Shown here piece after piece: positions 49,224 through 56,801 of a stretch of DNA of 64,000 nt. The translations under genes were made by a program, and so were the position numbers. The stretch is from contig JAENXC010000002.1 of the NCBI GenBank assembly GCA_016649715.1, forward strand, positions 1 through 64,000, written 5' to 3'. The notes under the pieces were generated by a model. It was not told the DNA's origin. It did not search any database and was given only the letters and a program-made list of their open reading frames with translations. Within the stretch, counting starts at the first letter, position 1. Each line of letters begins with the position of its first letter. The stretch comes from Flavobacteriaceae bacterium. Lineage in GTDB: Bacteria > Bacteroidota > Bacteroidia > Flavobacteriales > Flavobacteriaceae.

Positions 49224-50345
49224 TTATTCGGGAATCAATCTAAAAATTCCCTGTCCTTCCAAAGCAATATAAATCAATCCATCAGGTCCCATTTTTACGT
49301 TTCGTACTCGCCCAATATCCTGTGCAATTTTTTCGCGATCGGTCACTTTTTCTCCTTCCAGCGTAAGCAATTCAACATAACCAAATTTCAGCGAGCCCAC
49401 CAATAACTGGCCTTTCCATTGTGGATATTTATCGCCCGTAACGAATGCCATTCCGCAAGGTGCGATTGATGGCACCCAATAGTAAATGGGTGGTTCTATT
49501 CCTGGTTTTGTGATTTCATTAGTAATTTTTGTGCCGCTGTAATTGATGCCATAGGTTACGAGCGGCCAGCCGTAATTTGCACCTTTTTTAACAATGTTTA
49601 TTTCGTCACCACCTTTTGGGCCGTGCTCGTGCATCCAGATTTTCCCAGTTTCAGGATGTTTTGCCATTCCTTGAGGATTGCGATTTCCATAGGTAAAAAT
49701 TGCTTTTTTGGCGTTCGGTTCATTGTAAAATGGATTGTCTGCTGGGATGCTTCCGTCATCGTTCAATCGGTAAATTTTTCCACCGTCGCGGCTTATGTCC
49801 TGCGGATTTACATCGCGTTCGCCGCGCTCACCAATGGAGAAATATACAAAACCATCGTTGTCAAATTCAATCCGTGAACCAAAATGTTCCCCAGCCGTGG
49901 TGTTGGGTCCAGCCTTATAAAGCGTTTCAATATTTGTAAGCGAATTGTCTTCCAATTTGCAGCGCATCAGAGCAGTGTGTCCGCCTTTGCCTTCGCCTTT
50001 TTCCGAAGCGTACGTCATATAAATCCACCCGTTTTCCTTATAGTTTGGATGTAATTCAATATCAAGTAAACCGCCTTGCCCGCTGTTATAAACTTTCGGC
50101 ACGTTTGCTATTTCGGTCTTTTCATCATTTTTAAAATGAATTAATCTGCCCTCTTTTTCCGTAATGAGCATACTGCCATCGGGTAGCCAAGCCATTCCCC
50201 ACGGATTGGAGAGATTTTTCACAACTTTCTCAATTTTATAGGAAGGTGCTTCGGTTTGCAGGGCGACGTCTTTGTTTTTTTTCTGAATACAGGACACTGA
50301 AAACGCCAAGAACATATAGCATATAAATTTTAACTTCATCATCAT
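49224..50345 (-). CDS. PQQ-dependent sugar dehydrogenase family lipoprotein
   Basis: NLSNPWGMAWLPDGSMLITEKEGRL; GGLLDIELHPNY; NRNPQGMAKHPETGKIWMHEHGPKGGDEIN. Confidence 0.93.
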   Translation of the reverse strand: MMMKLKFICYMFLAFSVSCIQKKNKDVALQTEAPSYKIEKVVKNLSNPWGMAWLPDGSMLITEKEGRLIHFKNDEKTEIANVPKVYNSGQGGLLDIELHPNYKENGWIYMTYASEKGEGKGGHTALMRCKLEDNSLTNIETLYKAGPNTTAGEHFGSRIEFDNDGFVYFSIGERGERDVNPQDISRDGGKIYRLNDDGSIPADNPFYNEPNAKKAIFTYGNRNPQGMAKHPETGKIWMHEHGPKGGDEINIVKKGANYGWPLVTYGINYSGTKITNEITKPGIEPPIYYWVPSIAPCGMAFVTGDKYPQWKGQLLVGSLKFGYVELLTLEGEKVTDREKIAQDIGRVRNVKMGPDGLIYIALEGQGIFRLIPE

Positions 50346-50677: not shown

Positions 50678-52741
50678 ATGGAACCGATCAAAAAACTTGT
50701 GGTTTATGGCAAAAAGGAAATCAACGAAGAAGGAGCTGTTGTTTATAATTTACAGGCCAGCAATAGGGATGTTTCCAATCAACACGAAATCCAGTTGGAG
50801 GAAAATGATAAGTTGTTGGAATTGGTCCTTGACGACGGCACCTCTTGGATGTGCGATGCCTCTACCTTGCACGAGGTGTACCCGGAACTTGATCCAGCCT
50901 TAAGACCACCCGGTAGCCGCGACATGCAAGCGGATGTTTTTGTACTGCCCGATTCCGTGGAGGCACCATCAACAGAAAGGGGAGTTATTGGTAAAATTGC
51001 GGTAAAACTGCTGAAGGTGGTTGCAAAAAAGGCTATTGGGAATGGAGTGGCAGAGCTTTCGAAAAAATTGGAAGACAAACATTTGCAGAATGAGATTGAC
51101 AGTTCTATTATCCCAAAAAACTTTTTGGAAACGGGTGCGGCCTTATTCACTGTTGATAAGGATTTTAAATTTGGGATTTTTGATGGAAAACCGTCCAACA
51201 ATCCGTTTTTTCTTTTTATCCACGGCACAAACTCTGATTCATTCGGGGCATTTCAAGATTTAAAGGCTTCTCCAGCCTGGAATACACTACATCAAATGTA
51301 CGGCAAAAACGTACTGGCTTTTCAGCACAGAACCCTTACCGAAAGCCCATTGCTCAATGTGGTGAAACTGGCCCAAATGCTTCCCGATCACTCCGTGGTT
51401 CATATGCTTACCCATTCCAGGGGTGGAATTGTAGGCGACATTTTGAATAAATACAGTAGTAATAATGAAGAATCGTCCATTGGGTTTACCAGTGACCACA
51501 TTGCATTGCTTGAAAAAGAAGGCGATAGGGAAGAAGACATTGAGAATATTGGAGACCTCAACAAGATTTTTAAAAACAAAACGATAACGGTCACCAAATT
51601 TATTAGGGTAGGCTGTCCCGCCGCAGGTACCAAGTTGGCTTCCAAAAGACTGGATCATATTTTGAATGTCTTCTTTAATTTGATAACCTTGGTTGGAGGT
51701 GCGTTCGGTGATATTTTAAAGGAACTGCTTTCCGCGGCGGTGGAGAGCAAAGACGACGTATCTGTGCTTCCCGGTTTGGAAGCCCAAAGACCAGAATCGC
51801 CCTTTATAAAAATATTAAACGATCCATCACCGGCAACCGCCATTAACGGGAAACCGTTGGCTATTATTTCGGGAAATGGAAGAGTAAGTTTTTCGGGACA
51901 AGGGCTTTTTGTAATCCTCGGAAAATTGTTTTACTGGCAACGCAATGATTTGGTGGTGAACACGGATTCCATGTACTTGGGCGCAAAACGTAAAGACAAT
52001 ATTCAGTATTTCTTTGACCAAGGTGCCGACGTAAACCACGTAAAGTACTTTGAAAATGATAAAACTCGCGAAGCAATAGACTTGGTTCTCAAAACAGCTG
52101 AAGGAGAACTCATTCCGGGATTTAAATGTATTGCACAGGATGAAATCCCCGGAAGCGACAGAGCTCTTGTGGAATCTGGTGAACTGTATCCTTCCGCACA
52201 GCCACCTTCGGGCACAAAACCCATTGTGGTAATGCTTCCGGGAATCATGGGCTCCAACCTCACACAATCGGACAAGGAAATATGGCTCCATTATGGACGT
52301 ATTCTTACTGGAGGATTGATCAATCTCGGATATTCCAATGTGAACAAAATTGTAGCGGATTCCGTGGTAAAAACTTCCTATTTTAAACTTTACAAATGGC
52401 TATCGGCCAAATACGATGTGGTAGTCTTTCCTTTTGATTGGCGAAAACCACTTCCAGAATGCGCAAGCGAATTCAATATAAAAATTAAAAGTTTACTTAA
52501 AGTTGGGCAGCCCATAAAGATTATTGGGCATTCCATGGGCGGACTTTTGGCACGCGATTTTATCCTTAATCACGATGATACCTGGCAGGATTTGAAAGCT
52601 TCAAAAGGCTTTAGAATGCTCTTTCTTGGATCACCGCTCGGGGGTTCGTTCCGGATTCCTTCGGTTTTGTTCGGAGAAGATGCCATAATCCAAAAGTTGA
52701 GCAAACTGGATCTTTTTCCACACCAAGGAAGGCTTGCTTAA
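50678..52741 (+). CDS. N-terminal part of an alpha/beta hydrolase-LCAT-CHAT protein
   Basis: Two hydrolase modules: FFLFIHGTNSDS...LTHSRGG and VVMLPGIMGSNL...IIGHSMGGLLARDF; frame ends 8 nt into the next ORF. Confidence 0.8.
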   Translation: MEPIKKLVVYGKKEINEEGAVVYNLQASNRDVSNQHEIQLEENDKLLELVLDDGTSWMCDASTLHEVYPELDPALRPPGSRDMQADVFVLPDSVEAPSTERGVIGKIAVKLLKVVAKKAIGNGVAELSKKLEDKHLQNEIDSSIIPKNFLETGAALFTVDKDFKFGIFDGKPSNNPFFLFIHGTNSDSFGAFQDLKASPAWNTLHQMYGKNVLAFQHRTLTESPLLNVVKLAQMLPDHSVVHMLTHSRGGIVGDILNKYSSNNEESSIGFTSDHIALLEKEGDREEDIENIGDLNKIFKNKTITVTKFIRVGCPAAGTKLASKRLDHILNVFFNLITLVGGAFGDILKELLSAAVESKDDVSVLPGLEAQRPESPFIKILNDPSPATAINGKPLAIISGNGRVSFSGQGLFVILGKLFYWQRNDLVVNTDSMYLGAKRKDNIQYFFDQGADVNHVKYFENDKTREAIDLVLKTAEGELIPGFKCIAQDEIPGSDRALVESGELYPSAQPPSGTKPIVVMLPGIMGSNLTQSDKEIWLHYGRILTGGLINLGYSNVNKIVADSVVKTSYFKLYKWLSAKYDVVVFPFDWRKPLPECASEFNIKIKSLLKVGQPIKIIGHSMGGLLARDFILNHDDTWQDLKASKGFRMLFLGSPLGGSFRIPSVLFGEDAIIQKLSKLDLFPHQGRLA

Positions 52742-55700
52742 AATGTTCTCCCAATTTCCCGGTATATTGGCCTTGCTGCCTTTAACAACCGACCCGAAAA
52801 ACGATTTCGCAAAAATGGAAACTTGGGAAAATATGCGGAAGTATTTCGGAAAACCAGATTGGCCATTGCCTCTCAAAAGCGATCTTGATTATTTTAAAGA
52901 TTACCGCGATAACATATTGAAGAAAAGGGATGAGATAGATTATTCAAGTATGGTATATATTGCCGGCAAGGATAAAATGACTCCTTGTGGTTACTATTTG
53001 GACGAAATTCCCCCGAAAAAACAACTCTATTTCCTTTATACCAGTGAAGGGGATCAAAGTGTAACTTGGGAATCCGGCATCCCAAAACAGCTTATAGAGG
53101 CCAATGCCGTTTACTATTCGCGCGTAACGCACGGAGCACTCGCCAATGAACCTGACCTTTTTAATGCCATAGCGGAAATATTGACCACTGGTCAAACCCA
53201 GTTACTCCGCAATACAAAACCATTATTACGGGGCGAAGAAAAAATATTCAGGGCTGAACCGGATATAGATTTTGATCTTTCCGAAAATGGATTGGAAAAA
53301 ACCATTTTAGGTCTCGGGGCTGAAATAGAACCTGTTAGCAGCCAAATCCCCGTTACCGTTACCGTTAGCAATGGTGATTTACGATATGCTGAATACCCAA
53401 TTATTGCAGGACATTTTTTGAATGATGGAGTGCTTTACGCCGAAAAGGCCATAGACAATTACCTTGACGGAAGTCTAACTTCAAAACACAGATTGGGACT
53501 TTATCCTGGGGAAATTGGTACCAACGCCATTTTTGGAAAGATGGATGGAAGTGATTTTGAAGGTGCCATAATTGTAGGGCTAGGCGAACCGGACCAGCTA
53601 ACCTCTTTTCAGCTTTCAAAATCTGTGGAACAAGGGGTGCTGAATTATTTGTTAAGCATCCGAGGCAATACCGCTCCTAAGAAAGGCATCGGAGTTTCCA
53701 CCTTGATCGTTGCAACGGGTTACGGAGGTCTTTCGGTTGAAGGTTCCATTAAAGCTATTATTGAGGGCGTTAACCGAGCTAATGAAAAAGTGAAGATGTT
53801 GTCGAGTGAAGGTTACAAAACCGTTCAAAATATTGAAATCATTGAGCTTTATGCAGATAGGGCACTGAATTGTATGTACGTTCTCAACAAAATTGCCAAT
53901 AAGGAAAATTCAACTTTCAACATCATAATTGGCAACAAGCGAATCAAAAACCTATTGGGAATTCAAAAAAGAACGCCCTTGGACAATGCCGAGGATTGGT
54001 GGAACAGAATGACGGTTAAATACAAAGAAGCCAACGAGCAAACCGGGGAACCATCCAGTATGGTTTTTGGATCTTCCACTAACGATTCCAGGGAGGAAGA
54101 AAATGAACTTTACAGTAGCACTCCGTTGATAGACCTCTTTATCTCAGAAGTTTCGAGCACTAACCAATGGTCTGCCTGCACCGCAAAAACCCTTTTCGAA
54201 TTATTGATTCCCAATAATTTAAAGGAAAAACTTAAACGAAAAGGAAATATTTCTTGGATACTCGATGCCAAAACGGCTTCCTATCCTTGGGAATTGCTCC
54301 AAGACAACACGACCAATGCCAAACCCCTATGCATTAATGCGGGAATGATTCGGCAGTTATCCACCAAAGATTACAGGATAAATATAAAACGCGTGGCCGA
54401 TAAAGGTGCCTTGGTTATTGCCGATCCAATCCTGGATGGTTTCATTTCCCAGTTGCCCGGCGCAAGGGAAGAGGGAATGATGGTTAAGGATACTTTGGAA
54501 AATGTAGGCTATCCTACCACTCAACTCATTGGTACAGATGCCGAAAGCATAGTCAAGAATTTTTTCTGCAATGATTATACAATAATACATTTGGCAGGTC
54601 ATGGGGTCTTCAATCCAAAAAACCCGAAAAAATCTGGAATGGTGATCGGTAAGGATATTTTCCTTACAGTATTCGAAATTCAGCAGATGCCAGTGGTGCC
54701 AGAGCTCGTTTTTGTGAACTGCTGCCACCTTGGGTATAGCGATGCCGAAGACGAAAAATATTATCGCGATCGCTACAAATTGGCTGCAAACATTGGTACA
54801 GAATTGATAAGCATAAGCGTGAAAGCTGTAATAGCTGCCGGTTGGGCGGTTAATGACGCTGCGGCTATGGATTTTGCGCAGATTTTTTACAGCAGTATGT
54901 TCTCTGGAGATAATTTTGGGGATTCCGTAAAAAATGCCCGCAATTACATTTATGAAAAACACCCGGGCAACAATACTTGGGGCGCCTATCAATGTTATGG
55001 TGATCCATTCTTCAAACTTAAAGGCATCTCTGGAGGAAGCGGTTCTTGGTCGCCAAGTTATATTGTTCCGCAGGAAGCCGAGATAGATCTCGATAACCTA
55101 CTCAACCAGTTGCAAATGGCAACAAGTGCAGATAAGGACCATTTGGCAGAATTGAACACTATTATGAAGGCGGTGGATAGAGACGTTTTCAGAACACCTC
55201 AAATTATAGAAAGAGTAGCCAAGATTTATCAAGAATTGGCAATGTATATTGAGGCTAGTGCAAATTACGAAGAACTCCTAAAAATGGAAAATGCAGATTT
55301 CTCCTTTTCCTGTATGGAAAAATATTGCAACACAAGGGCAAAAATGTATATCCGAGAAATTTTTGAAAGTGAAGAGGCAACAGCAGCGGAGAAAAAAGAG
55401 GCCTACAAAAAAACGGAACGGGTAATCAGTGACCTTACTGTATTGCTTTTTGCGGGGGAAACCGCCGAACGTCACAACCTTTTGGGAAGTTCCTACAAAC
55501 GCTTGGCCATGTTGTCTCCAGATTCCAAAAAGCGAACCAACGCCTATAAAATTGCAGTTTCACATTATGACAGGGCCTATAGCAATGACTTCAATTCAAA
55601 CAAAATTTATTCTATTGCGAATTCCATCGAACTCGCTTGTTTGTTGGTTTTTAGCGGAGCTACGAAATCTGGGGGAGAATTTACTGTAGATGCGAAGAAA

Positions 55701-56180
55701 TATAAATTAAGGTCCATATCCGAAGCGCAACAAATGCTTGAGGAGGAACAAAATAAATTGAAACAAAAATCGGAGGCCGAAGACCTTAATTATTGGGATT
55801 TGATTGCCTTCTTAAATATTGATTTATGCCTTCTCTTAATTATTGAAGATGAAAAAATTGAAACCAAATGGGATGAAGTCATTCAAAATTTTAAAAAGAT
55901 TTGGAAAAAGGCTGGTTCCGAAGCAAAAAAAGCAGCAGAATTGGAACACCTCGAATTTTTAACCCAAAGCCTTAATTCTATTGCCGGTTTAGACGACGAG
56001 GCTTATAAACCGCAAAATGATTTGGAAACTCATATAAGTGAATTGAGAACTGCATTGAGTGGTGTTAGAAAAAAGATGAAGTCAGAGAACTCCGCAAAAT
56101 CGAAACCCAAAACAACAAAACCAAGTCCGCAACCGAAACCGAAACCCAAAACGAAATCAAAATCGAAGCCTAAAAAATAA
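52719..56180 (+). CDS. C-terminal part of the same protein: LCAT C-terminus, central domain, CHAT protease, helical repeats, Lys/Pro tail
   Basis: HTKEGLLKMFSQFPGILALLP continues the LCAT fold; CHAT motifs IIHLAGHGVF and FVNCCHLG; AYQCYGDPFFKL. Confidence 0.82.
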   Translation, partial: HTKEGLLKMFSQFPGILALLPLTTDPKNDFAKMETWENMRKYFGKPDWPLPLKSDLDYFKDYRDNILKKRDEIDYSSMVYIAGKDKMTPCGYYLDEIPPKKQLYFLYTSEGDQSVTWESGIPKQLIEANAVYYSRVTHGALANEPDLFNAIAEILTTGQTQLLRNTKPLLRGEEKIFRAEPDIDFDLSENGLEKTILGLGAEIEPVSSQIPVTVTVSNGDLRYAEYPIIAGHFLNDGVLYAEKAIDNYLDGSLTSKHRLGLYPGEIGTNAIFGKMDGSDFEGAIIVGLGEPDQLTSFQLSKSVEQGVLNYLLSIRGNTAPKKGIGVSTLIVATGYGGLSVEGSIKAIIEGVNRANEKVKMLSSEGYKTVQNIEIIELYADRALNCMYVLNKIANKENSTFNIIIGNKRIKNLLGIQKRTPLDNAEDWWNRMTVKYKEANEQTGEPSSMVFGSSTNDSREEENELYSSTPLIDLFISEVSSTNQWSACTAKTLFELLIPNNLKEKLKRKGNISWILDAKTASYPWELLQDNTTNAKPLCINAGMIRQLSTKDYRINIKRVADKGALVIADPILDGFISQLPGAREEGMMVKDTLENVGYPTTQLIGTDAESIVKNFFCNDYTIIHLAGHGVFNPKNPKKSGMVIGKDIFLTVFEIQQMPVVPELVFVNCCHLGYSDAEDEKYYRDRYKLAANIGTELISISVKAVIAAGWAVNDAAAMDFAQIFYSSMFSGDNFGDSVKNARNYIYEKHPGNNTWGAYQCYGDPFFKLKGISGGSGSWSPSYIVPQEAEIDLDNLLNQLQMATSADKDHLAELNTIMKAVDRDVFRTPQIIERVAKIYQELAMYIEASANYEELLKMENADFSFSCMEKYCNTRAKMYIREIFESEEATAAEKKEAYKKTERVISDLTVLLFAGETAERHNLLGSSYKRLAMLSPDSKKRTNAYKIAVSHYDRAYSNDFNSNKIYSIANSIELACLLVFSGATKSGGEFTVDAKKYKLRSISEAQQMLEEEQNKLKQKSEAEDLNYWDLIAFLNIDLCLLLIIEDEKIETKWDEVIQNFKKIWKKAGSEAKKAAELEHLEFLTQSLNSIAGLDDEAYKPQNDLETHISELRTALSGVRKKMKSENSAKSKPKTTKPSPQPKPKPKTKSKSKPKK

Positions 56181-56309: not shown

Positions 56310-56801
56310 ATGGAAGAAAAATTTAAAGCCATTGTCAATGATACCTTCGAGTTTTCATTGTCATTGAAGGATTTGGAAACCCTCGATGTTATTTCCGACA
56401 GCAAAAAATCCAATATCATCTATGCTCACAAATCGGTTGAGGCCAATATCTTTGAAACAGATTTCAGAAATAGAATTTACACTGTATCAATAAATGGCAA
56501 TCGCTATCAAGTTAGGTTGAAAAACAAACTTGATGCCCTTATCGCTAAAATGGGACTATCGCTTGGCAATACTGCGATTGAAGACGAAATTCTAGCACCC
56601 ATGCCGGGGATTATTTTGGAAGTGAACGTTTCCGAAGGCGATGAAGTTAAAAAAGGTGATTTTCTTTGCGTTCTTGAAGCGATGAAGATGGAAAACACGC
56701 TAACCGCGCCGCGTGATGGTATTGTAAAATCTGTTAACATCGCAAAAGGCGAAACGGTCGATAAAGGAAAATTGTTAATTGAATTCCATAAAAATGATTA
56801 A
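56310..56801 (+). CDS. Biotin carboxyl carrier protein subunit of an acyl-CoA carboxylase
   Basis: APMPGIILEVNVSEGDEVKKGDFLCVLEAMKMENTLTAP. Confidence 0.93.
   Translation: MEEKFKAIVNDTFEFSLSLKDLETLDVISDSKKSNIIYAHKSVEANIFETDFRNRIYTVSINGNRYQVRLKNKLDALIAKMGLSLGNTAIEDEILAPMPGIILEVNVSEGDEVKKGDFLCVLEAMKMENTLTAPRDGIVKSVNIAKGETVDKGKLLIEFHKND

Follow-up and report, generated by a model that had tools for sequence, protein, structure and literature searches.

A one-chain protease–lipase protein with macro-type and TPR-S domains at a fixed accessory site in Aequorivita

What a single bacterial protein could do with two lipase-like hydrolases, a caspase-like protease and putative sensor domains in one chain is the question raised by a giant gene in the stretch of DNA analyzed here (the window), which comprises 64,000 nucleotides (positions 1 to 64,000 of the forward strand of contig JAENXC010000002.1, assembly GCA_016649715.1) of an Aequorivita sp. 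(Flavobacteriaceae) with a 3.4-Mb genome. The gene product may be a cytoplasmic, signal-gated suicide effector triggered via an NAD-derived molecule made by a TIR enzyme, a reading held here tentatively and short of probable. The family tells more than the window alone.

Domain order, active sites and integrity of the giant protein

From the N- to the C-terminus, the protein comprises a small beta domain, a DUF7379 hydrolase, an LCAT/phospholipase A2-like hydrolase, a macro-type domain, a CHAT protease, a TPR-S array, and a Lys/Pro tail (Table 1). The matches to DUF7379 (E = 6e-29), LCAT (E = 1.9e-9; 37.7 bits against a cut-off of 21), CHAT (E = 2.3e-23; 83.5 bits against 24), and TPR-S (E = 1.6e-8; 35.5 bits against 27.6) all exceed the Pfam cut-offs, the TPR-S match falling under its cut-off in several homologues, and neither half of the protein matched any NCBIfam family. 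Nine catalytic residues are invariant among 31 aligned full-length homologues from Bacteroidota and Proteobacteria, namely two Ser-Asp-His triads (Ser247/Asp424/His454 and Ser619/Asp792/His818 in Gelidibacter numbering) and the CHAT His1308 and Cys1348/Cys1349, the second Cys being presumably the nucleophile, judged against CHAT motifs. As this invariance persists although many of the homologues are only ~28–33% identical, and as the ratio of nonsynonymous to synonymous substitution rates (dN/dS) is 0.04–0.08 in both halves of the gene (window versus six relatives), the conservation of the active sites is not due to chance. No signal peptide was seen in the sequence, and a hydropathy scan revealed no clear membrane helix.

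The two halves of the protein were modelled separately with AlphaFold, with plasmid-record rows left out, giving mean predicted local distance difference test (pLDDT) values of 79.4 and 79.5; the predicted template modelling (pTM) scores were 0.52 and 0.75, and the placement of the domains relative to one another is unreliable. In Foldseek searches, the nearest structures to the N-terminal half were lysosomal phospholipase A2 and LCAT (E = 2e-9 to 3e-8), which are also the nearest relatives of hydrolase 2 by profile. The C-terminal half matched the Craspase TPR-CHAT protein, the N-domains of leucyl aminopeptidases, a SAVED-CHAT filament (8tl0), and macro domains, the last with TM-scores to target that reached 0.75. 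The profile match of the central domain to the aminopeptidase N-domain has an E-value of 0.0012, and the corresponding family, PF02789, is over its cut-off in two homologues, L049 and L050 (E = 6e-8), and under it in the window protein itself. Peptidase_M17_N is assigned to the macro clan in Pfam (PMC6500376). On this profile and model evidence, the central domain is macro-type, of an M17_N-like subtype.

The domain order seen in the window recurs in Azotobacter, Paracoccus, Ensifer, and many Flavobacteriaceae. A short form in Rhizobium consists of the macro-like, CHAT, and TPR-S parts only, and the distant Bacteroidota forms L049 and L050 carry macro and CHAT domains without TPR-S, LCAT being recognised in one of the two. 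Because these reduced forms all keep both domains, the macro-CHAT pair seems to make up the core of the family. Two homologues are extended at one end: one has a C-terminal extension of ~400 amino acids with no recognised family (L109:6915-13469), and the other an additional N-terminal pYEATS-like stretch under the Pfam cut-off (L111:7569-14039).

In the window, the gene is read as two open reading frames (ORFs) in different frames, ORF1 (50678–52741) and ORF2 (52734–56180). The same region forms one uninterrupted ORF of 1,820–1,871 amino acids in 11 relatives (10 Aequorivita and one Gelidibacter), while the copy of a twelfth relative starts at a contig end, and the ATG at 50678 is the start used in all relatives. 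The two frames meet at a T-run inside hydrolase 2 whose length in the window is off by one base compared with all intact relatives. A programmed frameshift was weighed as the cause of the junction and rejected, as no relative changes frame there, and the break is therefore peculiar to this assembly. It is either a true frameshift or a homopolymer assembly error. That this genome holds a recently formed pseudogene, truncated inside hydrolase 2 and yielding no functional product, is suggested by the one-base length change, which is absent from all relatives, but is judged somewhat unlikely: draft assemblies often contain homopolymer errors, and the low dN/dS of both halves points to a gene kept under strong constraint at least until very recent times, so that any break must be recent. 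Such a loss would in any case have no bearing on the function of the family.

These results confirm a preliminary description of the locus made from the sequence alone, which had proposed one gene of ~1,830 amino acids, with two hydrolases and a CHAT protease bearing the LTHSRGG and IIGHSMGG motifs and the His and Cys at the positions in Table 1, followed by helical repeats (now known to include TPR-S), in a probably cytoplasmic protein. Neither of the two outcomes that would have counted against its interpretation was observed: the catalytic triads and the dyad are intact, and in homologues the parts are consistently fused in a single gene rather than spread over unrelated separate genes. The central domain, described as being of unclear fold, does exist and can now be assigned to the macro type. 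The putative macro and TPR-S sensors, the fixed accessory site, and the association with a second locus described below had escaped that description.

Table 1. Coordinates of the giant gene, its parts, its flanks, and the second-site operon (window positions unless stated otherwise)
Feature	Position	Strand	Basis or remark
Whole gene	50678..56180	+	One ~1,830-amino-acid protein in relatives; syntenic in Aequorivita
Small N-terminal beta-rich domain (about residues 1–75)	50678..50905	+	Alignment, strands in model; no Pfam family
Hydrolase 1, DUF7379 (PF24096)	51125..52105	+	Pfam match; triad invariant in 31 homologues
Hydrolase 1 triad	Ser 51416-51418, Asp 51947-51949, His 52037-52039	+	Ser in LTHSRGG
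Hydrolase 2, LCAT (PF02450)/lysosomal phospholipase A2-like	52193..53218	+	Profile, fold, invariant triad
Hydrolase 2 triad	Ser 52532-52534, Asp 53052-53054, His 53130-53132	+	Ser in IIGHSMGG
Frameshift T-run	52713..52717 (approximate)	+	Comparison with intact relatives
Macro-type domain, Peptidase_M17_N- and ADP-ribose-binding-macro-like	53343..53942	+	Profile and Foldseek
CHAT protease (PF12770)	54180..55004	+	Pfam, invariant residues, Foldseek
CHAT residues	His 54600-54602, Cys 54720-54722, Cys 54723-54725 (probable catalytic Cys)	+	Alignment
Alpha-helical TPR array, including TPR-S (PF20308) at 55245-55628	55068..56099	+	Pfam and model
Disordered Lys/Pro/Ser-rich tail	56100..56177	+	Low model confidence; poorly conserved in alignment
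Left flank, sorbosone-dehydrogenase-like gene (outside the system)	49224..50345	-	~115 bp from accB in non-carriers
Right flank, accB (biotin carrier)	56310..56801	+	Allele class follows gene presence/absence
Second-site operon	L113:3436-8974 = own genome G000:C34 ~274435-279973		Beside TerC-like gene, fixed in Aequorivita
Second-site operon proteins			655-amino-acid TPR; 746-amino-acid caspase-DUF676-TPR-S fusion; 74-amino-acid PGDYG-like; 337-amino-acid TIR with probable membrane helix

Accessory distribution and associated genes

Carriers make up 14 of the 28 Aequorivita genomes, 18 of the 399 Flavobacteriaceae sampled, and 5 of 395 genomes in a class-level sample. Its spread in Proteobacteria is known from plasmids only; no relative was found in phage records, and no confirmed one in viral contigs. 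Where checked, the Aequorivita copies always lie between the sorbosone-dehydrogenase-like gene and accB, two genes that are ~110–120 bp apart at the empty site of 11 non-carriers. On a tree of accC and pccB, the presence of the gene needs at least three changes, with a best value of five. In a comparison of the window accB with its homologues (L021-L032, L064-L076), the accB alleles fell into two classes that track carrier status (identity of 75.6% and 75.5% within classes and 60.7% between them), while accC, pccB, the dehydrogenase gene, and lepB did not split by carrier status. The simplest reading is that the gene and accB are swapped as a block by homologous recombination. A ~91%-identical copy in Gelidibacter algens (L023, 7946-13423) occupies a site unrelated to that of Aequorivita, and is therefore probably a recent transfer.

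This distribution bears on whether the protein could be a regulated housekeeping enzyme for lipid or membrane homeostasis, such as a stress-gated phospholipase whose sensor and protease tune lipid turnover. The low dN/dS, the single fixed chromosomal site common even to other genera, the position next to acyl-CoA carboxylase genes, and the fact that the gene stands alone at most loci would all suit such a role. However, a gene that is missing from half of Aequorivita with a clean empty site, and from ~95% of the sampled Flavobacteriaceae, is hard to regard as housekeeping, the fusion of protease and sensor would be unusual for a housekeeping lipase, and TIR, KAP, STAND, and restriction genes stand beside relatives, so this explanation is considered quite unlikely.

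The presence of the gene is associated with a cassette elsewhere on the chromosome. At least one TIR gene was found in 14 of 14 Aequorivita carriers versus 3 of 14 non-carriers, and an unlinked gene for a 74-amino-acid PGDYG-like protein in 14 of 14 versus 1 of 14 (Fisher P = 7.5e-7). The PGDYG gene marks a second fixed site. A TIR gene adjoins it in 12 of the 14 carriers, the other two having TIR genes elsewhere, and in three carriers the site holds the PGDYG and TIR genes only, with no local caspase-hydrolase-TPR-S gene. The single TIR gene of the genome studied here is ~220 kb away from the giant gene. Family-wide, the PGDYG gene occurs in 5 of 18 carriers versus 23 of 381 non-carriers (P = 0.005, uncorrected for kinship). 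The PGDYG/TIR cassette is probably a partner of the giant gene, encoded elsewhere on the chromosome. A possible homology between the PGDYG protein and the N-terminal domain of the giant, prompted by a shared 'G..w.cDa....y' look, was rejected (hhalign probability of 0.95%), and a literature search found no paper naming the DUF7379, PGDYG, or TPR-S domain.

Neighbouring genes in relatives include many with immune associations. Type I restriction and Fic genes are present at the Azotobacter locus, TIR-nSTAND1-WD40 genes in Rhizobium, and nSTAND1 in Ensifer. Other loci hold a ThsB-type TIR and a TIR-nSTAND1 gene (L048), TIR and pYEATS-TIR genes (L096), two caspase genes, one of them a caspase-hydrolase-TPR-S fusion (L098), a KAP NTPase related to the QatA/PifA models (L106), and, 3 bp upstream of the giant with the pYEATS-like stretch, a gene with a weak TIR match (L111). 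In 3 of 21 other genomes, a TIR gene is encoded on the same strand no more than 5 kb away, versus 0.137 expected (P = 4e-4, in a test chosen post hoc). The preliminary description had seen no contextual support from neighbours, which is true of the window and not of these relatives. No gasdermin was matched by Pfam among the neighbours examined, where no dedicated gasdermin profile was run. On Paracoccus plasmids, the giant is immediately preceded by a codirectional gene for a protein of ~1,090 amino acids (L034:6366-9650, L037:6512-9757).

A different kind of neighbour raises the possibility of a lysis device or antibacterial effector, in which the lipases would open the membrane for a partner peptidoglycan enzyme, either in self-lysis or against competitors. 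At 9 of 26 loci (L099:3718-7625 and eight others), the gene lies next to one for a PG_binding_1 protein of 404–425 amino acids with the motif 'IHWxGxGxxNxSAGCQV' and no visible signal peptide; a GH108/PG-binding gene follows the Rhizobium short form; and one homologue comes directly after the type VI secretion genes TssD and TssC (L110:3590-12272). However, the Aequorivita loci lack such an adjoining partner, neither an immunity gene nor a domain for toxin delivery was seen, and the YkuD reading of the PG_binding_1 protein is one of motif, its transpeptidase matches being insignificant. Taken together, a lytic or antibacterial role appears improbable.

A possible signal-gated suicide effector

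A soluble protein that unites putative sensors, a CHAT switch, and a pair of hydrolases directed at membranes fits a signal-gated suicide effector. In the resting state, both lipases would be kept inactive within the chain. A TIR enzyme, whose gene is a neighbour in some genomes and is located elsewhere in Aequorivita, may sense infection and convert NAD+ into an ADP-ribose-type signal, which could be bound by the macro domain, the TPR-S array, or both. Binding might rearrange or oligomerise the chain and so activate CHAT, which would then cut its own chain or a partner, releasing the DUF7379 and phospholipase A2-like hydrolases to attack membrane lipids and to cause death or growth arrest before the phage multiplies. 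A TIR product is a natural candidate for the signal, since the Thoeris TM-macro effectors bind ADP-ribose (ADPR) or imidazole adenine dinucleotide (IAD) and oligomerise (PMC11204291). The suicide effector reading is consistent with the invariant triads and CHAT dyad, the purifying selection, the phospholipase A2/LCAT fold, the macro match, the CHAT fold, the TPR-S domain, the TIR and other immune-type neighbours of relatives, the pYEATS-like stretch of one homologue, and the co-occurrence with PGDYG and TIR genes. The earlier suggestion of a cytoplasmic protease/lipase pair acting in cell death gains from the intact active sites, the nearest folds, the lack of a signal peptide and of any clear membrane helix, and the immune neighbours of relatives, with the defence role itself still conjectural.

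Several observations weigh against this reading. Its strong conservation sets the gene apart from many of those engaged in arms races, and M17 N-domains are not known to bind ADP-ribose. Neither the window nor the loci of other Aequorivita have an immune or defence gene adjoining the giant gene, and a second clade has a different operon, made up of the PG_binding_1 protein with the YkuD-like motif, a lipoprotein, a FAD_binding_4 protein, and a coiled-coil membrane protein. After correction for kinship, the association with the cassette comes down to three independent pairs, all concordant and placed on well-supported branches, a number too small for significance, and the PGDYG gene is absent from 13 of the 18 family-wide carriers. 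A two-locus form of TIR-signalled immunity, in which a one-chain receiver (macro sensor, caspase-like protease, and two lipases) is gained and lost together with a signal-making PGDYG and TIR cassette elsewhere, and in which signalling of the Thoeris type would act through phospholipases released by proteolysis, is viewed as doubtful and on the unlikely side.

Bacterial caspase-like proteases are mostly known as activators of separate partners, such as gasdermins, Csx30, and anti-sigma cascades. In the giant protein, a putative signal receiver, a protease, and two candidate membrane-lipid enzymes share one chain, which would place a whole pathway of detection, cleavage, and killing within one gene and a TIR cassette. 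Should the macro domain indeed read a TIR product, combined proteolysis and lipolysis would be a new output of TIR signalling. The co-occurrence in trans also warns that neighbourhood-based searches for defence genes overlook systems split between two sites.

Relation to known systems

In its proposed mode of action, the giant resembles the Thoeris system of TM-macro ThsA and TIR ThsB in its association with TIR, its macro-type, probable receiver of an ADP-ribose signal, and its presumed membrane target (PMC11204291). It differs in having lipases and a protease and in lacking transmembrane, SIR2, and SLOG parts (Pfam, hydropathy); moreover, no ThsB TIR is adjacent in the window neighbourhood, and its macro domain is of the M17_N-like subtype.

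Among CHAT proteins, the type III-E Craspase TPR-CHAT (Csx29) shares the CHAT domain and the TPR array and is among the best fold matches, while the TPR of the giant follows CHAT, no gRAMP/Cas7-11 was found among the neighbours in the window and relatives, and the targets of its CHAT, in contrast to Craspase, are probably the fused lipases. As in SAVED-CHAT, the type III CRISPR protease represented by the 8tl0 match, a putative ligand-receiving domain precedes CHAT; in the giant, it is macro-type instead of SAVED, and no CRISPR locus is present in the window neighbourhood. Borvo (BovA) is likewise a single-gene CHAT defence protein (PMC10952713). A weak, partial BovA match was the only PADLOC result (E = 1.5e-5), and it covers CHAT alone, with ~150 of 711 BovA model positions matched and the lipases, macro domain, and TPR-S unmatched. 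In the caspase and alpha/beta-hydrolase conflict systems, a caspase-type peptidase is always paired with an alpha/beta hydrolase, the two being neighbouring genes in predicted MoxR/vWA/VMAP systems (Kaur et al., 2020; PMC7159879). In the giant, by contrast, CHAT shares its chain with two hydrolases, and no MoxR, vWA, or VMAP gene occurs among the neighbours examined.

Hydrolase 2 shares its profile, fold, and Ser-Asp-His triad with lysosomal phospholipase A2 and LCAT, but is bacterial, predicted to be cytoplasmic, and part of a multidomain protein. In the TPR-S/pYEATS conflict proteins, the TPR-S domain was reportedly predicted by Burroughs and Aravind, in the Journal of Bacteriology in 2020, to sense NAD-derived signals, and TPR-S, TIR, and pYEATS recur here. 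The giant is a novel variant among the CHAT/TPR-S conflict proteins, with an unusual one-chain protease-lipase layout, rather than a member of Thoeris, Craspase, or Borvo.

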